Notes under the pieces: generated by a model
Databases searched by the model: none
Told to the model about the DNA's origin: nothing
Seen by the model: the letters and a program-made list of their open reading frames with translations, nothing else
Assembly: GCA_020719165.1 (NCBI GenBank)
Contig: DYQT01000013.1
Coordinates: forward strand, 1-33,093
From: Draconibacterium orientale
Lineage (GTDB): Bacteria; Bacteroidota; Bacteroidia; Bacteroidales; FEN-979
Direction: 5' to 3'
Length of the DNA stretch: 33,093 bases
In this document: one piece after another, positions 8,089 through 19,922 of the stretch
Numbering within the stretch: the first letter of the stretch is position 1
Layout of the letters: each line of letters starts with the position of its first letter
Translations under genes and position numbers: made by a program

Positions 8089-11052
8089 TTATTCAGGGTT
8101 ACTGCCCTGCACTTTTTCGGTGAGCTCTGAACGATCAATTTTTACAAGGGTTTGAAAAAGTGACTGGTCGCTTGTAATTTTCTCAGAATTGCCATATACA
8201 CAAATCTTAGCCTGCCGGAGCCCCTCTTGCACCAATTGTGTGAAGCCTCGGATATCCTCCTGGGTTGTTGACAGCACTGCATCGCGGTCGCGTTGCACCT
8301 CTTCTTCTGTACGCTGGGATAAAAACATGCTTACAGCCTGGTCACCCTTTTGTGATGGCGTAAGCGGCGAGTCCATTTCTGAGATGGTACCGATGATGTA
8401 GCGGGTCATGCTCAGCGAGTCGGAGGCAAAGGAAGAGAGATATTCGGGGGTGTTGTCAAAATTTTCGATGGTGCTTACCAGATTCGGGTCGCGGTAAGAG
8501 TTGAGGGTAAAGTTTCCCCCGGGGGCAATGCTGCTGAAGCCACCATAGGCCCCACCGATCACCCGGATGCGGGTCTGGAGCCAGTCGGTAGATAAAACAT
8601 GGTTGAGAACGCGCATCTTTGCATCCCATCCATAGCCGAGCGTTTTGTAATTAAATCCTTTCACCACGTATTGCACATTTGATGCCGCCATCAGTCCTTC
8701 GTTTTGATTGACCGTGCGAAAATCCCAGTTTTGCTCCTCCAGGGTTCCCGGCGGAAGTTGACGTGCAAGAAAATTCAACCCGTTTGCAAACACTGTTTGA
8801 TCTTTTTTTGCACCTGTCACAGAGACTACCATGTTATTCCAGTTGAACAGCAATCGGGCAACCTGTTCCAGGTTCGCAATGATGACATTGGCATCAGCAT
8901 CGAAATTCTTCAGCAGGTCGGTAACAAACCAGTAATACGAAAGCCCTCCGGTGATTTCGTTGAACATACCCTGGTTGCTGATATAGGAAGAAAGTCGGCG
9001 GCTTGCCACATGGTACCCGTTGCCTTTCACCTGGGCCTCGATTTGTGACTGGTGACGCAACAGAATTGTTTTCAAGCGATCGGGATCACGGTATATCGTA
9101 TTGTTCAGAATCTCTTCTCCCAGTTCGAATAGCTTGACAACTTTATAATTCATGGTTTTTGATGTAACCACAAATCTGGGCAGAATTTGATTATCATCCA
9201 TTTTCACGAGGTAGGTGCGGAGTGAGGTAAAAAAACCTCCGGTATGAATGTTCAAAGCCTTGTTCAGGTCGCCAAAAGAATAATTTTTGGTATTCATGCT
9301 GCCAATTACATGCGACAGGAGGGAAACATAGGGGATCAATTCCTGAGGCACCTGCTGCATTCCGAAGAAAAGGTTTACATACACTACATCGTTGGTAAAT
9401 TGTTCATGCGACAGCACGGGAATCCCGGCAATATTTTGCTGTGTAACTGAATAAAAATGCGATTTTGGGTCGATGTCGCCTATTGTAAGCATGGGAACAG
9501 AGGCAAGTGCTTCAGGTGTATCCTCACGTTGCTGATAGGCAATGAGCTCTTCTGTTTGCCTGATTATCTGGTCAACGGCAGCTTCATCCAACGTTGCTTT
9601 ATATGTTACGAGCTCAGCCTCAACCATTGCATTTTGTTCTTTCTCCATTCCGGCAGAGGGCTCCAGCGACAGCAGCAGGGTATGCGGATTGTCGAGAAAG
9701 TAGGTGCGAATGATCGATTCGAGGTAATCGGTTGTCAACGCTTTTTTAACCTCAGCCAAAGGGATGTCATATTCAAGTCCGGTAAGCGGATCATTGGAGA
9801 AGAACCATCCGGGGAGAGCCATGTTCAGGTATGTGAGTCCTTTATGGGCATCATCACCTTCACGCAGCCGGAATTCGATCCGGTTGATCACCCCTTCGAT
9901 TTCCTCTTTGTTTAGTCCTTCATCTGCCGCTTTGCGCAAAGTGTTTGTTACAATCGCCAGAAATTTTTCAGTGTCTTCCGCATTTGCATTGATGGCAGCA
10001 ATTTGCACCGCGTGCTGTTTGAAGTTGGAAGAGGATCCCGAAACATCCTGTCCGATACCGGCTCCGAGCAGCGCCAGACGAATGGGAGCAGATTCCTGGT
10101 TGACCAATACTTCACAAAGGATATCAAGCGCCAGTGTAAGCGCGTGGTCGGTATTGTGTCCGGCAATAAAGTTGTAGGTGAGAAAGGTTTGGTTTGTGGT
10201 TACCGACTCCTCCATCACCGGGTAAAAAGCGGTCACTTTTTTCATGGCCGCAAAAGGCAGTTGATCCTCGATGGTGATCTTATTTCCCGTTTTGGTAAAT
10301 TTGGCCAGATATGCATGGTTGATGAATGCCAGCTCTTTTTCCAGATCGGCATCGCCATAGAGAAAAATATAGCTGTTTTCGGGGTGATAATATTTTTGAT
10401 GAAATTCAAGAAAGGCTTCACGTGTCAGGGTAGGAATGGCAGAGGGTGTTCCTCCCGACTCATGTCCGTAAGCGTTGTCGGGAAAGAGGTGTTTGAATAC
10501 CTGGTACCAGAGTTCGCGTTGGGGATTAGAGAAAGACCCTTTCATCTCATTGTAAACCACCCCGGTATAATTCAGCGGTTCATCTTTGTCTGAAAGCTCA
10601 ATATGCCATCCTTCCTGTTTGAAGATACGCGGATCCTCATAGATCAGCGGGTTGAATACGGCATCGAGGTAAACGTGCATGAGATTAAAGTAATCCTTGT
10701 CGTTCATGCTGGCTACAGGATACATGGTATAATCCTTGGATGTAAAAGCATTGAGAAAGGTGCTGAGCGAGCCTTTCAGGAGCACATCGAATGGGCTTTT
10801 TACCGGAAAATTTTTTGATCCGTTGAGTACCGAGTGCTCCATGATATGAGGCGCTCCATTGTCCGACTCCGGAAATGTTTTAAAGCCGATGCTGAAGGTC
10901 TTGTTCGTGTCATCACAAATGATCTTTAGCAACTGTGCGCCACTGTTTACATGTTCAAAATGGAGACAGTCGGCATTAATCTCCCTGACAAACCGTTGTT
11001 CAATCAGGCGGAATCCGTGAATAATATTGTCGTTGATATATTTTGTTGCCAT
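8089..11052 (-). CDS. M16C metalloprotease, presequence-protease (PreP)-like
   Basis: A 987-residue zinc peptidase of the insulinase/pitrilysin clan. The inverted zinc site is GAPHIMEHSVLNGS (His69, Glu72, His73), with the distal Glu in VVYNEMKG. Length and the single-chain N and C halves fit the PreP/M16C subfamily, which degrades peptides in a closed chamber. No signal peptide is visible, so it is probably cytoplasmic. The ORF track starts at 11091, but a TATCTTTG promoter at 11075-11082 lies inside that extension. ATG 11052 (MATKYINDNIIHGF) is therefore preferred and aligns better with the family start. It is convergent with the 5398 gene, whose stop is 15 bp away. Confidence 0.93.
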   Translation of the reverse strand: MATKYINDNIIHGFRLIEQRFVREINADCLHFEHVNSGAQLLKIICDDTNKTFSIGFKTFPESDNGAPHIMEHSVLNGSKNFPVKSPFDVLLKGSLSTFLNAFTSKDYTMYPVASMNDKDYFNLMHVYLDAVFNPLIYEDPRIFKQEGWHIELSDKDEPLNYTGVVYNEMKGSFSNPQRELWYQVFKHLFPDNAYGHESGGTPSAIPTLTREAFLEFHQKYYHPENSYIFLYGDADLEKELAFINHAYLAKFTKTGNKITIEDQLPFAAMKKVTAFYPVMEESVTTNQTFLTYNFIAGHNTDHALTLALDILCEVLVNQESAPIRLALLGAGIGQDVSGSSSNFKQHAVQIAAINANAEDTEKFLAIVTNTLRKAADEGLNKEEIEGVINRIEFRLREGDDAHKGLTYLNMALPGWFFSNDPLTGLEYDIPLAEVKKALTTDYLESIIRTYFLDNPHTLLLSLEPSAGMEKEQNAMVEAELVTYKATLDEAAVDQIIRQTEELIAYQQREDTPEALASVPMLTIGDIDPKSHFYSVTQQNIAGIPVLSHEQFTNDVVYVNLFFGMQQVPQELIPYVSLLSHVIGSMNTKNYSFGDLNKALNIHTGGFFTSLRTYLVKMDDNQILPRFVVTSKTMNYKVVKLFELGEEILNNTIYRDPDRLKTILLRHQSQIEAQVKGNGYHVASRRLSSYISNQGMFNEITGGLSYYWFVTDLLKNFDADANVIIANLEQVARLLFNWNNMVVSVTGAKKDQTVFANGLNFLARQLPPGTLEEQNWDFRTVNQNEGLMAASNVQYVVKGFNYKTLGYGWDAKMRVLNHVLSTDWLQTRIRVIGGAYGGFSSIAPGGNFTLNSYRDPNLVSTIENFDNTPEYLSSFASDSLSMTRYIIGTISEMDSPLTPSQKGDQAVSMFLSQRTEEEVQRDRDAVLSTTQEDIRGFTQLVQEGLRQAKICVYGNSEKITSDQSLFQTLVKIDRSELTEKVQGSNPE

Positions 11053-11222: not shown

Positions 11223-11243
11223 GTGACGCGTGACACGTGACGG
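11223..11243 (+). repeat. Heptad direct repeat (GTGACnn)3
   Basis: GTGACGC-GTGACAC-GTGACGG, then GTGG. It sits between the divergent M16 and DUF6599-like genes and belongs to the same repeat type as 32195-32222. The remaining bases of the 11083-11274 gap hold a weak TATATTTA box (11157-11164) and nothing else I can name. Confidence 0.6.
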
Positions 11244-11274
11244 GTGGAGTGTTATCAGGTTAAAATATTTACAT

Positions 11275-12120
11275 ATGCGTATATTTCTGTTTGTTTTTTT
11301 GCTGATGCCGGCCTTGCTGGTGGCACAGCCTGTTTTGCCCCTGACCGGTACCGATTTTCCGGATGCGATAGTAGGGAGTGTTTTAACCTATGATATTGAA
11401 ACACTGCCGGAATACAATGAAGGAGCCGATCTATTCAGCGAGTTTGGATTCAAATCGCTGATGGTTCAGGAGATCACGTGGAAGGCCGAAAAAATCAAGG
11501 TGGAGGTATATCAGATGAACAGCGCTGAAGGCGCTTTTGGCATTCACACACTCTCGCTTGTAAAATGTTTGCAAAGGGATACGCTTTCACCGTTTGATTG
11601 CAATTCGCCATATCAGTATCAGCTGCCTTATGGGAATTTATACATATCCGTCACGAGCGAAACAGGCTCGGGAATAGCCCGTGCCATGTATCTTCCGGTG
11701 GCGGGAGCAATCATGCAAAAAAATCCGCAGAGACTGATAGAACTCCCCGAGCCATTCAGTCAGCCAAGGTTGAAAAACGAACAAAAAAACCTGGTTTATA
11801 TCCAGGGACTTACTGGTTTGCAGAACAGTTTTTTCCCATGGCAGGAATTATTTCTGGGGGTGCGTTTTGGGATGTATGCCATTTTTCTGTCGAATTCCGA
11901 CAATGAATTATATTTTGCCCGCATCAGGTTTGAAACTCCTGCCGACATGGTGCGGTTTCTTACATTAGCCGGACTGATGCAGGATGGTATTCCAATTCCC
12001 AATACAAACAACAATGATGGTTTGTATCGGGAGTTTCAGCAACTGGATAATGGAACAATTTATTTTCTTCAAAGTCAGGTGCCGTTGCCAATAACCTGGG
12101 TTATTGCACCGGAGAAATAA
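11275..12120 (+). CDS. Secreted DUF6599-like protein
   Basis: I choose ATG 11275 because it begins a clean signal peptide (MRIFLFVFLLMPALLVAQ), whereas the ORF-track extension to 11230 is read through the heptad repeat. The 281-residue protein has features of DUF6599: a front segment with YNEGADLFSEFGFKSLMVQE, then EVYQMNSAEGAFGIHTL, and a later half LGVRFGMYAIFLSNSDNELYFARIRF. It is a probable periplasmic protein of unknown function. It is convergent with the TPR gene, 13 bp away, so it is not part of that operon. The family assignment is moderately sure and no function is implied. Confidence 0.75.
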   Translation: MRIFLFVFLLMPALLVAQPVLPLTGTDFPDAIVGSVLTYDIETLPEYNEGADLFSEFGFKSLMVQEITWKAEKIKVEVYQMNSAEGAFGIHTLSLVKCLQRDTLSPFDCNSPYQYQLPYGNLYISVTSETGSGIARAMYLPVAGAIMQKNPQRLIELPEPFSQPRLKNEQKNLVYIQGLTGLQNSFFPWQELFLGVRFGMYAIFLSNSDNELYFARIRFETPADMVRFLTLAGLMQDGIPIPNTNNNDGLYREFQQLDNGTIYFLQSQVPLPITWVIAPEK

Positions 12121-12133
12121 CTTCAACTTTAAG

Positions 12134-12778
12134 CTATTTTATCAAAGACAAGCCTTCAACGGCCGAAGGATCTTTTGGTCTGTTGAGAAGAACCTTATTA
12201 AAAAGCACCTGAGCCTCCCGTAATTTTCCAAGTTTCAGATTGGTCCATGCAAACAAAATCATGCTGTCGTAATCGAAGGGATAAAGGTTTACAACTTTTT
12301 CAAGGTGTTTTTCAGCCTTTGCAAAATCTCTTCTGCCGTAATAGATAGATCCCATCCGGTAGTTGGCCAGGGTATTCTGCGGGTCAATTTTGAGAATTTC
12401 AGCATATTGGGAAACCACCTGATCCCAGTTTCCCAAAGCCGACGCGGGATTGGCGAATCCAAATTTGGCCTCAATGGCATATGGTTTCAGCGAAATCGCC
12501 TTCTGATAATAGGCAGATGATTCGGTGAACTGACCGGCAAGGTAGGTAACCCAGCCAAGTCTGAGATTAATTTCATAGAAATCTTCAAGATACACTTTTT
12601 TAAGAACTGCCGTGGCATCGGTAAAATTTCCTCTGGCCTCATATGCGTGACTTTTACTGAAAGCGTCCTGCAAAATCTGGTAGTCCTGTGCCTGAACAGA
12701 AAAAAATGAGATAAACATCAGCGAAATAGCGAAATGGCGAAATCTCTTTAAGCTGTGACTTTTTGTTATAGTTTCCAT
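12134..12778 (-). CDS. Periplasmic TPR protein (last gene of the PqqD/ATP-grasp operon)
   Basis: The protein has 214 residues with an N-terminal signal peptide (HFAISLMFISFFSVQAQ) and tandem tetratricopeptide repeats over residues about 35-210 (GQFTESSAYYQKAISLKP, GNWDQVVSQYAEILKIDP, RDFAKAEKHLEKVVNLYP, GKLREAQVLFNKVLLNRP). TPR domains bind peptides or other proteins; here a scaffold in the periplasm is inferred. Its ATG overlaps the upstream barrel gene by 13 nt, which indicates coupled translation and a shared function. Confidence 0.85.
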   Translation of the reverse strand: METITKSHSLKRFRHFAISLMFISFFSVQAQDYQILQDAFSKSHAYEARGNFTDATAVLKKVYLEDFYEINLRLGWVTYLAGQFTESSAYYQKAISLKPYAIEAKFGFANPASALGNWDQVVSQYAEILKIDPQNTLANYRMGSIYYGRRDFAKAEKHLEKVVNLYPFDYDSMILFAWTNLKLGKLREAQVLFNKVLLNRPKDPSAVEGLSLIK

Positions 12779-14256
12779 GTGATTCCTCCTATGATGGTGT
12801 TAGTGTTATATGGGACAAAAAGGGTTGATGGTTTTGTATTTACCTCATTGGTTGCGGGATTGGTGGTAAAATAATATTGTATGCTCTCTTTGCGGGAATA
12901 CTGATAGAGGAGTGAAAATTGAAGATGTTTCCCGACCAGAAAATAGAGACTGCCACTGGCACGATAATCAATTACGTCGCTGTTGTTATACACCACTGCG
13001 CCATTCATGATGCTTGCGTTGGTATAGTCGCCGTAATTAAAACTCCCTTCAGCCCAACACCAGGAGGTGATTTTTGCCCCCAAAACTTCACTGAACAAAA
13101 ATCGTTTATCTTTTCCCTGAAAAAAGCCCGTTACCGAAGTGGTGCTGTAAAGGTTAAGGTTGCCAAAAGGCAGCCAGGTAACCGAGGCTCCGGCCTGCTT
13201 TTGCTTTTTGTTGTTGAGGTTTGAATAGCTTCCCGAAATCCCGATGTTGACACGGCCAAACTTTTTCGACAATGCCAACCCCACAAAATAATTGGAGAAG
13301 GAGGTGTCGGATCGTGTGAAGGTATAAATAGTCCGATTGAAGGGGAATGTAACATACTCCTGACCCTCGTTCAGGTAATACCCGGTATCATTTACAGTTA
13401 CCTCCTCTGCCGATGCACTTACAAGCGGATAACTGACATAGATCAAATGAAAAGCGGGCATGATCCTGATTCCGCCATTCAAATACCAGGAGAGGCTGGC
13501 ATAGACTTCATGCTGGTTTACATTGTAACGGAAGCTGGTATCATAGATCACCCGCGGAAAAGAGTAGTGGTAATACTGTCCCCAACTCGAGTCGGCGATA
13601 CCATCGAGATGATCTTCAATACGGCTATACTGGATGTATTTTGTTTTAGAGAAGTTGAGGTAGTTATATGCCAGCGTTAGCCCGATCCGGTTTGAAAGGT
13701 TGAATTTCATCCCAAGATGCTCATACAGGTAGTTGCCATAAACATCTGTTTCACCATAAATGCTGTCGGCTTCCATCAGCGATGGTTTATCTTTGAGGGC
13801 GTTGTTGCTGCTCAGGGTATAACCGCTTTCGAAACTGAGGGCATCAACAAATCCTTTTTTGGCATCGATAACATTTTTTGCTTTTGCTGGGAGTGAGGCC
13901 TGAAGGAGCCTGGCCTCTTCCAATTGGTTTGTGAAGAGGTATGAATAATAGAGATAATCTGCAATCACGGGATCATCTGCTTCAAATTTTCGCGCTTTTT
14001 CCAGGTGGGTTCCTGCGGGAATGTACTCCCTTTTTTCATAATAGGCCAGCCCCATTCTGACACGAAGATAATAGAAGTCGATATCTGCGTGCAGGGCTTT
14101 TTTGCCTAGGATGATCACGCTATCCCATTTTTTTTCCAGAAAGTACTTGTAGGTTAATTCATCCACGGTTTTGTAATCAACGGTTGTGGAAGCCTTCAGG
14201 CGCTCAGGGGTCAATAAAAGGAGGGTAAATATTAAAGGAATCAGGAACTTTATCAT
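12766..14256 (-). CDS. Outer-membrane beta-barrel protein with TPR-like N-terminal region
   Basis: I start it at ATG 14256 (MIKFLIPLIFTLLLLTP), which overlaps the upstream stop as ATGA; the ORF-track start at 14346 would lie 90 nt inside the upstream gene. The 496-residue protein has a signal peptide, a helical TPR-like region (about 25-140; KKWDSVIILGKKALHADIDF, EYIPAGTHLEKA), and then many amphipathic aromatic strands (for example NRIGLTLAYNYLNFSK and FGRVNIGISGSYSNL) ending in GGITWKL, as in outer-membrane barrels. It resembles YaiO-like TPR-barrel proteins in layout. It lies between the transporter-peptidase and TPR genes, so it probably links this system to the outer membrane. Confidence 0.8.
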   Translation of the reverse strand: MIKFLIPLIFTLLLLTPERLKASTTVDYKTVDELTYKYFLEKKWDSVIILGKKALHADIDFYYLRVRMGLAYYEKREYIPAGTHLEKARKFEADDPVIADYLYYSYLFTNQLEEARLLQASLPAKAKNVIDAKKGFVDALSFESGYTLSSNNALKDKPSLMEADSIYGETDVYGNYLYEHLGMKFNLSNRIGLTLAYNYLNFSKTKYIQYSRIEDHLDGIADSSWGQYYHYSFPRVIYDTSFRYNVNQHEVYASLSWYLNGGIRIMPAFHLIYVSYPLVSASAEEVTVNDTGYYLNEGQEYVTFPFNRTIYTFTRSDTSFSNYFVGLALSKKFGRVNIGISGSYSNLNNKKQKQAGASVTWLPFGNLNLYSTTSVTGFFQGKDKRFLFSEVLGAKITSWCWAEGSFNYGDYTNASIMNGAVVYNNSDVIDYRASGSLYFLVGKHLQFSLLYQYSRKESIQYYFTTNPATNEVNTKPSTLFVPYNTNTIIGGITWKL

Positions 14257-16463
14257 CTCTTGTGTAGCAGGGTTACGGTAATACTCATCTCTTTTTCCCG
14301 AATGATGAATCGTTCCAGTCCATGCGGCCCGACAAACAGGTCGCATTCCATCTTTTTAATTTCGTAATTCCCGATTCTTGCACTGGTGACTGAATGTAAT
14401 TGTATGTTCGATTGCATCAATTCATCGTTCATGGTCACATAATGAAGAGAATAGTCGGCGTGGGCAAATATACAAAACGGTGCAGCAAAGTCTTGCAAAA
14501 TCCCTAAAATACGGTTATTAAAAGTGTTTACCGGATAATTATCTTTCACTTCAAGGTCGCGGTAATATCCCATCATGACTTTGTAGGAGGCAAGGTAGAA
14601 CTGAAAAAGCAGGGATGATTTATCCCCGTCGAAATGGGTGAAATAGTGAATCTCGCCATCATTGTAAAAATAGGCCTTCGATTTTGTTTTTTCACAAAAC
14701 ACAAAGGTACTGTTCAGTGCATCGATCTGAACCTCCCAGTCAACCTGGTATTCGGGTCCTGAATCCGGTGTTACCTGATAGCTGAATTTTTGTCCTGGTA
14801 TCAGGTGAAAAGCCCTTTCCAGGGAGGTGTTTTTCGTAATGTTGGATACCAGTTCATCCTTCAGCGGAGTCTCATACGATTTAAGAGCAAATGATCGCGG
14901 GGTATGGCTGATGAAATGACTAATGGGATAATCCAGGGTTTTTGAACCGATGTAGGGTGTTCCCTGAATCTGAAAATGAAGATGCGGATAGGGCGATCTT
15001 CCTGAATTTCCGCAGTGAGCCAAAATCTGCCCTTTCTTTACGGAGTCGCCCGCTGCCACCTTGATACTCCCTTTTTTCAAATGGGATACTTTGGTATAAA
15101 GCTGATCGGCATGCCGGATAATAATCGTATTACCCCAATTGTGCTCGAGGTCAACGTTTCCAATGTTATTCTCCTCCACATCTGTTGTCACCTCCTCAAT
15201 CCTGCCATCCGCCGGGGCAATCACGGGTTTATTGTAGGCATAGTAATCCTCGGGATAGTCGCCCTTTTCGGTATAGGTCAGTCCTTCTTCATCGATAAGT
15301 TCAAAATCCCAGGCATGGCGCCAATCGCCTTGGTGGGTATAGGTGCCATTGTGACCCTGGGTTACTTTCCAGGCTCCCCAAAACGGGAGAATAAACGGGA
15401 AGTAAATCGATTTTCCGAACCGGGCCTTGTAGTTGATGTGGGAGTAGAGGTTTTTTTCGGGGGAGTATTGTTGATATCCGACCAGTTCCGGTTTCGTAAA
15501 ATAGCGCTCACGGAATTTCAGGGAATATAGAAACAGCAGCACAACCATGTTAAACGGCAATGAATACACCGATAGCTGAAAAAGTGCCAGGATTGACTGG
15601 GTACTGGTAAGAATGATCGAAATAACGGGAGTTAGCAGGATCACCCAAAGGAACGACCATCGCGAAGGAATGATGAAGAAGCCTCCGATGGCAATAGAGG
15701 TCAGGATAAAATTAAACCCGATAAAGCCGTAACTCAATTCATGAATATCGGCACCCACGATTTGATAATAAAAATGTGCCGAGAAAAACCCAACGAGGGA
15801 CAGAATGAATGCAATGCGCGAATAAATGAGAAGACCGATGGCAATCAGGATGCCGGCAAAAAGGTGGTATTGAAAAAAAATAGCCCCCAATGAGGTGAAG
15901 TAGATCCGAACAGGTTCGGGTATATCCATCTCGAGGAACCAGTTGTAGGAAGATACCATTGGATGCCCGCCGAGAGAGAACATTTCATTGGTCATATAAA
16001 TACCATGCTCGCTCACTTGCAGTGTTGTAAATTGCCGGGTGGCGAGGCTTACCAGCCAGGTGGCAACCAGAAAAGAGAGGCTCATGTATGGGAGTCCGTA
16101 TTTTCCGATGGCGCCTTCGAACCAGAGGGTCAGGAATAGTGTGAGCATTGCGGCGAATGCCAGCACGATAAAAAATGAAACTCCCGGTTGGTAATAGCTT
16201 CCGAATCCCAATCCCACCAATAAACTATTGAATCCGTAGTAACCCTTTTTGATATTTGCCTGATTGAGGCCAATCAGGTATGCCAGGGTGTTTGAAATTA
16301 CCACAGCGAAGAGCCCGCTTGTTCCCGCCCAAAAATCGAAAAAGGAGACAATCAGGAGGATTGTTGCAAACACCCGGTTGTTCGAAAAAAAGATTTGGGG
16401 GTAGCTGTTTATGATCCCTGAGAAAAAGGATGGAAACATGTCGGGAACCGTGTTGTTCTTCAT
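14253..16463 (-). CDS. Urea-transporter-like membrane domain fused to M23 peptidase domain
   Basis: The protein has 736 residues. The first 320 or so are highly hydrophobic and show the two-fold urea-transporter (UT) signatures GYYGFNSLLVGLGFG and SYGFIGFNFILTSIAIGGFF. Residues about 360-540 form an M23/LytM-like domain with VIAPADGRIEEV, VSHLKKGSIKVAAGDSVKKGQ and SPYPHLHFQI (HxH at 494/496). The first zinc-ligand region reads THQGDWRHAWDFEL, where His383 to Asp386 is one residue shorter than the usual HxxxD; His377 is another candidate. A C-terminal region of about 190 residues has no recognised family. Start and stop abut or overlap both neighbours (0-nt gap upstream, ATGA downstream). Transport of urea or a small amide, coupled to cleavage of wall or other peptides, is inferred. 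Members with this fusion may exist elsewhere in Bacteroidota. Confidence 0.85.
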   Translation of the reverse strand: MKNNTVPDMFPSFFSGIINSYPQIFFSNNRVFATILLIVSFFDFWAGTSGLFAVVISNTLAYLIGLNQANIKKGYYGFNSLLVGLGFGSYYQPGVSFFIVLAFAAMLTLFLTLWFEGAIGKYGLPYMSLSFLVATWLVSLATRQFTTLQVSEHGIYMTNEMFSLGGHPMVSSYNWFLEMDIPEPVRIYFTSLGAIFFQYHLFAGILIAIGLLIYSRIAFILSLVGFFSAHFYYQIVGADIHELSYGFIGFNFILTSIAIGGFFIIPSRWSFLWVILLTPVISIILTSTQSILALFQLSVYSLPFNMVVLLFLYSLKFRERYFTKPELVGYQQYSPEKNLYSHINYKARFGKSIYFPFILPFWGAWKVTQGHNGTYTHQGDWRHAWDFELIDEEGLTYTEKGDYPEDYYAYNKPVIAPADGRIEEVTTDVEENNIGNVDLEHNWGNTIIIRHADQLYTKVSHLKKGSIKVAAGDSVKKGQILAHCGNSGRSPYPHLHFQIQGTPYIGSKTLDYPISHFISHTPRSFALKSYETPLKDELVSNITKNTSLERAFHLIPGQKFSYQVTPDSGPEYQVDWEVQIDALNSTFVFCEKTKSKAYFYNDGEIHYFTHFDGDKSSLLFQFYLASYKVMMGYYRDLEVKDNYPVNTFNNRILGILQDFAAPFCIFAHADYSLHYVTMNDELMQSNIQLHSVTSARIGNYEIKKMECDLFVGPHGLERFIIREKEMSITVTLLHKR

Positions 16464-17819
16464 TTAGTTTATCTTCCGGAGGTGTTCAGGGATGTTTTCC
16501 ATGCTGTTCATGTTTGCAAGCGATTCCTCTGTACGGATCACATGAAGTTTTTCGTCCATGTCAATTAACAAAATGTTCGGGCGAAGGGTGATGAATTGCA
16601 TCCATTGTGTCATATTGTAAGCGCCAACACTGTGAATTACCACGTGTTCGCCTTTATTCAGCAGTGGCAGAGAGGTGCTTTCCCTGATCACATCAATGTT
16701 CATGCACAGCGGACCATAAACGCAGGTATCTTCGGTATATTGGGTAAACGATTGGGCCGGGGTGATTTTGTGATCGTACCAGAAGGAGGTGAACAAAATA
16801 TTCACACCAATGTCGAGGATGGTATTCCTTCGCCCGGTACTCGACCGTTTGTTGGAGATGACAGTCCCAAGCAGATATCCGGCCTCATCAATGAGGGCAC
16901 GACCGGTTTCGAGGATAAGCAATGGCAGTTTATCTTTCTGGAAATTGCTGTTCAGTAAAGCGGTTGAAATGGCCTCCGCAAAATCATTAAAAGATGGGCT
17001 GGTGTCGGCACCGGGTAAATAAGAACCTTTGAGCGTGTTTTTTGAGGCAAAGCCTCCGCCAAGATCGATGTATTTGATTTCGTGTTTGAATTTGTGTTCA
17101 ACCGACAGCGCCAGTTCAGCAAGTTTAGTAGCGGCAACACCATATGCATGCGGCGACAGCATAAATGTGCCGATGTGGCAATGTAACCCTACCAATTCCA
17201 TTTTACCCGAATGCATAATTTTATTCAGGGCATCCCAGGCCTGACCATTCTCATAATTAAAGCCAAAGCGGTCCCATATCGGATATACACCCGTATCCAT
17301 GTTCACCCTGATGGCAACACGCGGACGTTTTTGCAATAATTCGGCAAGTTCTGTAATGGTATATAGCTCATCCAGATGATCGATGTGTATCAGCGAATCG
17401 TTTTTTATGGCTTTGGTCAGATCTTTTTCGCTCTTATCGGGACCATTGAAGATGATCTTGCGGCCATCAATACCCATTCCGATGGCTTTATCATACTCAA
17501 AACCCGACACTACCTCTGCCCAGGAGCCCTCCTGGTGGAAGATGCTGCATATTGCGTTGAGATAGTTGGTTTTATATGACCAGGCAAACTGAACTTTAGG
17601 GTAAAGTGTTTCAAATGCCCGTTTTGCCTTTTTGATGGTGCTGCGGATAATCTTTTCGGAAATAACAAACAAGGGGGAACCATATTCTTTGACCAGTTTT
17701 GCAACAGAATGTCCGTCAATATGGGTTACAGGTTCATAATCCATTCTTGTTCCGAATTTATTCGGCATGCCGGTTTCAAGCTTCTTTATCACCGGGCGTT
17801 CATATCTAATCTTGCTCAT
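16464..17819 (-). CDS. Fold-type III PLP-dependent decarboxylase, LysA/ornithine-decarboxylase-like
   Basis: I use ATG 17819 (MSKIRYERP) rather than the upstream TTG, giving 451 residues. The PLP lysine lies in FAWSYKTNYLNA. Other family motifs are HCHIGT, the phosphate-binding LGGGFA, LETGRALI, and the partner-subunit active-site loop CVYGPLCMNIDVI. The DAP decarboxylase version of that loop is usually GPxCESxD; the Glu-Ser is replaced by Met-Asn here, so the substrate is probably not meso-diaminopimelate. SVGAYNMTQW keeps the tyrosine region. It likely decarboxylates a basic amino acid or a conjugate in the cytoplasm. It sits 64 nt after the ATP-grasp gene, and its stop is immediately followed by the ATG of the transporter-peptidase. 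Confidence 0.88.
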   Translation of the reverse strand: MSKIRYERPVIKKLETGMPNKFGTRMDYEPVTHIDGHSVAKLVKEYGSPLFVISEKIIRSTIKKAKRAFETLYPKVQFAWSYKTNYLNAICSIFHQEGSWAEVVSGFEYDKAIGMGIDGRKIIFNGPDKSEKDLTKAIKNDSLIHIDHLDELYTITELAELLQKRPRVAIRVNMDTGVYPIWDRFGFNYENGQAWDALNKIMHSGKMELVGLHCHIGTFMLSPHAYGVAATKLAELALSVEHKFKHEIKYIDLGGGFASKNTLKGSYLPGADTSPSFNDFAEAISTALLNSNFQKDKLPLLILETGRALIDEAGYLLGTVISNKRSSTGRRNTILDIGVNILFTSFWYDHKITPAQSFTQYTEDTCVYGPLCMNIDVIRESTSLPLLNKGEHVVIHSVGAYNMTQWMQFITLRPNILLIDMDEKLHVIRTEESLANMNSMENIPEHLRKIN

Positions 17820-17883: not shown

Positions 17884-18930
17884 TCAGAGTTCGCCGTGCA
17901 TGCTTATCTGCTCGAACTCCTCCCGGTCAACGATCATATCCCAGGAGTAACGGATAAACATCTTCCCCACATCATAGGTAGTAAAAGGCTCCACTTTCTC
18001 ACCCAGGGCGAGGTTTACAAGCGCTTCGGGAATGTTTTGTCCGACTCCTACCGCGAGATATATCCAGGCAGGCAGCCGCGGGTTAATTTCTAAAAGGTAA
18101 AGTTCCCCATCTTTGTTTTTCATCAATTCCAACTCAAACCCGCCACGCCATTTTGTGTTTCGCAGAAATGTACGGGTCATCTCCAGCATTTTCTGATCAG
18201 AGATGGTAATGCCTCCCCATGCCTTGCCTTTGTCGGTAATGTATTGTTTGCGCATCGGAACTGCTCCAATGGTGTTTCCATTGCCATCGCCAAGCCCTGT
18301 CACATTGAATTCGGTACCGTGAATGAACTCCTGGATAATGATTGGAAGCCCCCACTTTGCGCTTATTTTATTGAAGTAGCTCTTTATCTGCTCAATACTG
18401 TAGGCGATGGAAGCATCGTAAAATTTGCCTTTAACCAGCATCGGGAAGTTAAATTCGGAAAGTAAACTATGAACCGTGTTCAGATCATAAATCACCTTAC
18501 TTTTTGGGACACTGATGCCATATTTCTTTCCAAATTCGTTCAGGTTCACTTTTTCACGCTCTTCAAACTGATTCAGGGTTGGCAGAAACATGTGGATTCC
18601 CATCGTTTTGAGCCTGGGCTCCAATTTGATAAAAGGGAAGAGCTCGGCATCAAAGTTCGGGATGATTACATCCAGTTTCTCTTTTTCATGAATATACTCC
18701 AGCCGTGCCAATAAGGTATCGATGCCGGCAGAGGGATAGGGTATGGAATAGGTGCGGTCAACAATGTTGTGCATATAAATGCCCGGTTCCAAACTTTCGT
18801 ACGACAATCCGATGATCTTTACGTCGAATGTGGCAGCTTCCCGCAAAGCTCTGATCACCGATACCCCGGGCCCCGGCGAGTCGATGGCATTCAGACCGGT
18901 TACACCGATGTTAATCGTTCGTTTCTTCAT
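17884..18930 (-). CDS. ATP-grasp carboxylate-amine ligase
   Basis: The ORF track uses a TTG at 18939; the ATG at 18930 (MKKRTINIGVTGLNA) is preferred, giving 348 residues. The N-terminal Rossmann-like preATP-grasp part (about 1-110) starts INIGVTGLNAIDSPGPGVSVIRAL. The ATP-binding part carries FPMLVKGKFYDASIAYS, IIIQEFIHGTEFNVTGL and the metal-binding LYLLEINPRLPAW. The layout is that of carbamoyl-phosphate-synthase-type ATP-grasp ligases, which activate a carboxylate as acyl phosphate and join it to an amine. It overlaps the PqqD-like gene by 20 nt. Its likely job is to ligate an amino acid, amine or peptide in the same pathway as the decarboxylase. The substrate is unknown. Confidence 0.88.
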   Translation of the reverse strand: MKKRTINIGVTGLNAIDSPGPGVSVIRALREAATFDVKIIGLSYESLEPGIYMHNIVDRTYSIPYPSAGIDTLLARLEYIHEKEKLDVIIPNFDAELFPFIKLEPRLKTMGIHMFLPTLNQFEEREKVNLNEFGKKYGISVPKSKVIYDLNTVHSLLSEFNFPMLVKGKFYDASIAYSIEQIKSYFNKISAKWGLPIIIQEFIHGTEFNVTGLGDGNGNTIGAVPMRKQYITDKGKAWGGITISDQKMLEMTRTFLRNTKWRGGFELELMKNKDGELYLLEINPRLPAWIYLAVGVGQNIPEALVNLALGEKVEPFTTYDVGKMFIRYSWDMIVDREEFEQISMHGEL

Positions 18931-19171
18931 TGGTTTCAATCAGGTTATGATTATAAAGGATGCCTACAAAATCGTGGTAGTCTTTCTCAAATGTGGCTTT
19001 TTCAGTACTATACTTCTCAAGGATGGCTTCACTGATTTTATCCACAGATTTATCCTCACGAATGAGTTTCAGGATCTCAACCCCGATCGGGTTTACCGAG
19101 AATGATTCGCCGGTTACCGGGTTGAACAGCAGCCCGGCCTCGCTTACCGCAACATTTTTTCGTAGTTTCAT
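18911..19171 (-). CDS. PqqD-like small protein (RiPP-recognition-element-type fold)
   Basis: The 86-residue protein MKLRKNVAVSEAGLLFNPVTGESFSVNP... has the PqqD pattern: two short strands around a 'GE.f.vN..g..I..li' segment, then helices with DKISEAILEKYS, and FVGILYNHNLI at the end. PqqD domains bind leader peptides of ribosomal peptides or partner enzymes. No radical-SAM partner is in the window; the coupled partner is the ATP-grasp ligase (20-nt overlap). It is the first gene of the operon, 151 bp after the AraC-type gene. I looked for a small precursor peptide next to it and did not see a convincing one. Confidence 0.75.
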   Translation of the reverse strand: MKLRKNVAVSEAGLLFNPVTGESFSVNPIGVEILKLIREDKSVDKISEAILEKYSTEKATFEKDYHDFVGILYNHNLIETNEETND

Positions 19172-19322: not shown

Positions 19323-19922
19323 TTATTCGGCAGAAACTATTTTATCAAGGCCTGAACGGCCCATCGCAGGAATCACCTTATACTCGGTTACGGAGATGCC
19401 CGTAATTGATTTGAACTGCGTCGACAGGTATTGTACGCTGCTGTAACCCATCATGTAGGCGATTTCGCTTAACGTAAGCTCGCCGTATTCAATAAGTTCC
19501 TTTACTTTCTCAATCTTATGCAGGATGGTGAATTTTTCCAATGTGGTGTTTTCATGTTTTGAAAACAAAGAAGAGATGTAGGGGTACGACATTCCAAACC
19601 GTTCAACAAGGTAGTCGGAGTTGCGCACCATGGCATTGTAGGTAGAGTTATGTACCAGATCGATCACGGCCTGCTTAATCTGCTCTACCAGCATTTTTTC
19701 CTTATCCGTGATAATTTCAAACCCATATCCTTCCAGGATCGCTTCAATTTTTTTCCAGGTAAACCTCTCCTGGTCGGCAGCGAGAACAAGGGTTCCCAGT
19801 TTTATATCAATAATCTCGATGCCCTCCACCGAAAATTCTTTGCGCAGCAAATGGATGCAACAACTGCTGGTCATGTTCTTTACATGAATGGTTCGACGCG
19901 GAAATGGGGTTTTACTTTTCAT
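19323..19922 (-). CDS. AraC-family regulator with heavy-metal-associated-like N-terminus
   Basis: The protein has 199 residues. Residues about 11-75 (IHVKNMTSSCCIHLLRKEFSVEGIEIIDIKLGTLVL...) have the beta-alpha-beta pattern of HMA metal-binding domains, with Cys-Cys where the usual CxxC would be. Residues about 95-190 form an AraC double helix-turn-helix (RFGMSYPYISSLFSKHEN; LTLSEIAYMMGYSSVQYLSTQFKSITG). It begins 9 bp after the rodA stop, so it may be read from the mrdA-rodA transcript, and lies 151 bp before the PqqD operon, its most plausible target. Related HMA-AraC proteins in Bacteroidota usually have a CxxC motif. Whether this one still binds metal is open. Confidence 0.8.
   Translation of the reverse strand: MKSKTPFPRRTIHVKNMTSSCCIHLLRKEFSVEGIEIIDIKLGTLVLAADQERFTWKKIEAILEGYGFEIITDKEKMLVEQIKQAVIDLVHNSTYNAMVRNSDYLVERFGMSYPYISSLFSKHENTTLEKFTILHKIEKVKELIEYGELTLSEIAYMMGYSSVQYLSTQFKSITGISVTEYKVIPAMGRSGLDKIVSAE

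Follow-up and report, generated by a model that had tools for sequence, protein, structure and literature searches.

A 736-aa protein of Draconibacterium orientale joins a urea transporter (UT) domain to an M23 peptidase domain, and this UT-M23 fusion may be a small-solute channel bearing a cytoplasmic zinc hydrolase, of predicted activity, that serves a new ligase/decarboxylase pathway, a reading which we put forward tentatively. The gene lies on the minus strand at 14253-16463 of the window, that is, the whole stretch of 33,093 nucleotides analysed (contig DYQT01000013.1). It is the fourth of six genes on this strand, whose order downstream is PqqD-like protein, ATP-grasp ligase, FslC-like decarboxylase, UT-M23, TPR/outer-membrane protein and TPR protein. 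This cluster looks like part of a small-molecule pathway not described before, rather than a cell-wall enzyme. No relevant paper on the UT-M23 fusion, or on UT together with ATP-grasp or PqqD, was found in the open-access literature searched.

UT-M23 is encoded by a single uninterrupted frame. Its UT domain comprises residues 17-314 (15522-16415), with a Pfam match (E = 3.8e-57) that covers positions 4-290 of the 292 in the profile, and the PF03253 search of its own genome matched it as well. The Pfam Peptidase_M23 match spans residues 410-500 (E = 1.3e-17), inside an M23/LytM domain of about residues 353-510 (14934-15407). Beyond these two, nothing in UT-M23 was above the Pfam cut-off, and the C-terminal ~220 residues, modelled as a beta-rich domain at residues 518-736 (14256-14912), have no Pfam match. 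The AlphaFold2 model, built on 36 homologues, has a mean pLDDT of 86 (88 for the C-terminal domain). In this model the UT part shows the UT fold, with ten transmembrane helices in two halves, and was matched by Foldseek to dvUT and UT-B with a TM-score by target of about 0.8. The M23 part was matched to the LytM-type domains of DipM, EnpA and LytM (probability 1.00), so that a LytM fold is present, while the C-terminal domain is weakly similar to a LolA/nitrobindin-like barrel, with a probability of 1.00 but a TM-score of about 0.3. A preliminary description of this DNA had placed the two UT half-repeat motifs, together with the HLH motif of M23, in one frame, with about 190 C-terminal residues unassigned; all of these are found in the 736-aa frame, the unassigned part being the ~220 residues above. 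The genome search that it proposed recovered complete UT-M23 copies from about 50 fetched loci, with 35-83% identity in many independent genomes. Therefore, an assembly artefact does not explain the fusion.

The M23 active site appears complete in the sequence, with the His-Asp-His zinc ligand set and the catalytic His all present. The first zinc ligand His377 (15333-15335), the zinc ligand Asp386 (15306-15308) and both histidines of H494-L-H496 (14976-14984), of which H494 is catalytic and H496 a zinc ligand, are invariant in 49/49 aligned homologues, and in the 36-sequence alignment these residues and the catalytic His461 (15081-15083) are all invariant. The HLH motif reported earlier is thus the HxH of H494 and H496. 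However, the unusual "HxxD" spacing, counted from His383, had been read from the wrong histidine. H383 is kept in only 45 of the 49 homologues and is replaced by Q, F or Y in more divergent fused homologues, where H377 is unchanged; consequently, H383 is not a zinc ligand. The spacing is H-x8-D386, and the canonical HxxxD is absent. In stand-alone relatives, the strands follow in the same order and the spacing is H-x10-D or H-x11-D (alignment read by eye); the variable H-D loop is, as far as the alignment indicates, a trait of this M23 subclade, including haloarchaeal and Thermus proteins. Compared with DipM, EnpA and LytM of the LytM/lysostaphin type, UT-M23 shares the fold, the His/Asp/His ligands, the catalytic His and the HxH, but has the H-x8-D loop in place of HxxxD, is predicted to be cytoplasmic and is tethered to a channel.

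Could such a domain work without catalysis? The cytoplasmic M23 domain, with the C-terminal domain, might be mainly a sensor or gate for the channel, in which case hydrolysis would be of minor importance or would not occur. Catalytically dead regulatory LytM domains are known, for example EnvC, which is a fold match here, and the C-terminal beta domain weakly resembles folds of the lipid/ligand-binding type. This reading is rather unlikely, since the metal and catalytic residues are invariant in the aligned homologues, unlike those of the stand-alone relatives L085 and L086, which have lost zinc or catalytic residues and are apparently degenerate LytM domains.

The partners of UT-M23 in the cluster suggest biosynthesis. 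The ATP-grasp ligase (17884-18930; PF15632, PRK12767 group) is carbamoyl-phosphate-synthase-like by profile. The PLP decarboxylase (16464-17819) is closest to the N-citrylornithine decarboxylase FslC, matching the NCBIfam FslC model at E = 2.5e-67, yet below the family cut-off, and matching FslC of PDB entry 7kh2 at E = 2.7e-58. It shares the fold-III PLP type with FslC and BtrK, and with FslC the Cys-Met of the catalytic GP-x-C motif (GP-x-C-M), but its partner is an ATP-grasp ligase and not an NIS synthetase. The substrate of FslC, N-citrylornithine, is an N-acylated ornithine. Since an FslC-like decarboxylase and a carbamoyl-phosphate-synthase-like ATP-grasp ligase occur together, the pair suggests that an amino acid is ligated and the conjugate then decarboxylated. 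Downstream of UT-M23, a probable outer-membrane protein with an N-terminal TPR-like part (12766-14256) overlaps the UT-M23 stop by 4 bp; it is assigned from the conserved overlap and its position, and its homologues have TPR matches and one weak OMP_b-brl match. The last gene (12134-12778) encodes a TPR protein with a signal-like N-terminus.

The first gene encodes an 86-aa PqqD-like (RRE) protein (18911-19171; PF05402, E = 2.4e-12, with 14/15 homologues matching), and its place beside an ATP-grasp ligase and a metallopeptidase brings to mind a RiPP-type pathway, in which the PqqD-like protein would present a ribosomal precursor to the ATP-grasp ligase and the decarboxylase, and the cytoplasmic M23 domain would cut off the leader. 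We consider this unlikely. Besides the PqqD-like gene itself, no conserved small precursor ORF was found near the cluster; a peptide could not be exported through the UT slot, and the decarboxylase is similar to enzymes acting on amino-acid derivatives. The possibility that the PqqD-like protein is a LysW-like amino-group carrier was rejected, because its C-terminus is conserved neither in residue nor in length. Just upstream of the cluster lies a gene for an AraC-type regulator (19323-19922) with an N-terminal NMTSSCC motif. Among 27 selected loci, most of them divergent, 8 have AraC-type homologues with a similar NMACNCC motif near the cluster, and the regulator may control the cluster.

The cluster, which the preliminary description did not mention and which tells most about UT-M23, is widely conserved. 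Among the 395 genomes of the Bacteroidota sample, 44 have a UT, which is fused in 34 (32 intact, one truncated and one frameshifted) and stand-alone in 10. The ATP-grasp profile at E <= 1e-60 matches exactly the same 34 genomes as UT-M23; the chance of two identical random sets of this size is about 1e-49, with shared ancestry ignored. Nearly every locus with sufficient flanking sequence has the same gene order and strand, and the 4-bp overlap noted above is conserved. Carriers include Bacteroidales, Cyclobacteriaceae/Algoriphagus, Rhodothermaceae, Balneolales and Ignavibacteria-type MAGs. Of the cluster members, the outer-membrane protein evolves fastest, and it is unrecognised in the most distant loci.

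Several apparent exceptions and additional partners were rejected. Locus L056, the only one whose genes are not neighbours, seemed to lack the operon, but its cluster is broken up and the ATP-grasp gene is on another contig of the genome. In L081 (genome G047), a natural two-gene split was suspected between UT and M23; the break (8944-9030) resembles a frameshift near a T homopolymer, and the cluster is otherwise intact. A gene for a 289-aa membrane-type protein in the interval between the PqqD-like and ATP-grasp genes is found only in two related MAGs (L053, 1974-2843; L069, 2382-3251) and is not counted as a member. RodA, M16 and DUF6599 lose their linkage in distant loci; the DUF6599 gene (11230-12120, opposite strand, downstream of the cluster) is kept only by near relatives.

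On which side of the membrane does the M23 domain act? With helix boundaries taken from the AlphaFold2 model, and with the N-terminus and the large loop between the halves left out of the count, the loops facing the same side as both termini have a mean of 9.0 Lys/Arg versus 0.16 on the other side (n = 49 homologues); when the C-terminal tail is also omitted, the means are 5.2 and 0.16. The positive-inside bias favours an N-in/C-in arrangement in 49/49 homologues, the charged loops correspond in the alignment to those of dvUT, and the model has no membrane-crossing helix after residue 316, that is, no eleventh one. In human UT-B, both termini are intracellular and the loop between the repeats is outside (PMC5700210). 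From the charge bias, the ten helices and the UT-B topology, the M23 domain is strongly predicted to be cytoplasmic.

The preliminary description had taken UT-M23 for a wall peptidase, in effect a periplasmic endopeptidase tethered to the channel, and had itself named a cytoplasmic M23 domain as the outcome against this. The predicted topology gives that outcome in all 49 homologues, and we now regard the wall enzyme as distinctly improbable, in spite of the M23 fold with its intact active site, the signal-like N-termini of several stand-alone M23 relatives and the RodA gene near the cluster in the genus of the window. Extracytoplasmic action is the rule for characterised M23 enzymes and for proteins with a LolA-type fold, and the LolA-like hint from the modelled C-terminal tail points in the same direction, all of which counts against a cytoplasmic M23 domain. 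However, the RodA linkage does not extend to distant loci, the cluster is of a biosynthetic kind, and related M23 proteins occur in haloarchaea, which have no murein. Given these haloarchaeal proteins, a wall function should not be assumed for this M23 subclade. These relatives belong to a sister group of membrane-tethered M23 proteins from Thermus, haloarchaea and some Bacteroidota (L082; L094, 2288-3247; L095, 2261-3124; L096, 2186-3112; L097, 2069-3565), which are 33-39% identical to the M23 domain of UT-M23 and share the H-D loop variant, in their case H-x11-D, with hydrophobic helices followed by an Arg-rich segment ahead of M23. They differ in having an anchor other than UT and in showing no operon link in the fetched stretches. 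Their M23 domains are possibly cytoplasmic as well, including those in organisms that lack murein.

The channel part was compared with dvUT by mapping pore residues through a phmmer alignment. Like dvUT and UT-B/SLC14A1 of the UT family (PF03253), UT-M23 has two inverted half-repeats, ten helices and a Phe slot, and the equivalents of dvUT Gln24, Phe27, Phe80, Leu84, Phe190, Gln191, Phe243 and Leu247 are kept. Unlike in the known family members, T130 is replaced by S128 (48/49 homologues), T294 by S301 (42/49) and Glu187 by Ala194 (45/49). By this mapping, UT-M23 appears to retain a slot suited to a small planar solute, with altered polar contacts. UT-M23 further differs in being fused to an M23 and a beta domain, in not being accompanied by urease and in belonging to a ligase/decarboxylase cluster.

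The fused UT-M23 shows no association with urease. Counting true urease at E < 1e-50 in the phylum sample, we found it in 6 of the 10 genomes with a stand-alone UT, five times within about 7 kb of the UT, and in one of the 34 genomes with a fused UT, there on another contig (Fisher p = 0.0002, the species not being independent). In the family to which the window belongs, UT-M23 was found in over 30 of 43 genomes and urease in 0/43. Ordinary urea uptake for nitrogen, with an incidental M23 domain, would suit the good UT domain and its conserved slot, but is very improbable given this lack of urease, its pairing with the stand-alone UT instead, the conservation of the fusion together with the ligase/decarboxylase cluster, and the loss of both Thr and of Glu187 from the pore.

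For the small-solute channel with a cytoplasmic hydrolase, a possible account, which we offer with caution, is that the channel-tethered M23 domain hydrolyses the ATP-grasp/decarboxylase product in the cytosol and that the freeing of a small solute other than urea is thereby coupled to its transport. In the scheme that we infer for catalysis, step order, direction and solute, an inner-membrane slot channel of the UT type, N-in/C-in, would carry at its cytoplasmic mouth both the zinc M23-type hydrolase and the beta-barrel-like C-terminal domain, which is possibly ligand-binding. The PqqD-like protein as a chaperone and the ATP-grasp ligase would form an amide-type conjugate, which the FslC-like PLP enzyme would decarboxylate. 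The M23 domain would then hydrolyse the amide of the intermediate beside the channel mouth. Since a ligase product would be too large for the UT slot, the channel might pass a small planar co-substrate or leaving group, and the outer-membrane and TPR proteins would round off a route through the envelope. The transported molecule may be linked to the hydrolase, as suggested in the preliminary description, the latter then facing the cytosol.

UT is usually seen as a urea pore and M23 as a wall hydrolase, and here the two belong to a single conserved protein that apparently serves another purpose. The cluster is present in about 9% of the sampled Bacteroidota species, and the fused type makes up three quarters of the UT-bearing genomes sampled (34/44). 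Therefore, the labels "peptidoglycan peptidase" and "urea transporter" in genome annotations would probably mislead in the case of UT-M23. The cultured carriers Algoriphagus formosus and A. kandeliae make the question testable. If the proposed reading is true, UT-M23 would represent an M23 peptidase at work inside the cell, together with a UT that has a biosynthetic, urease-independent role.
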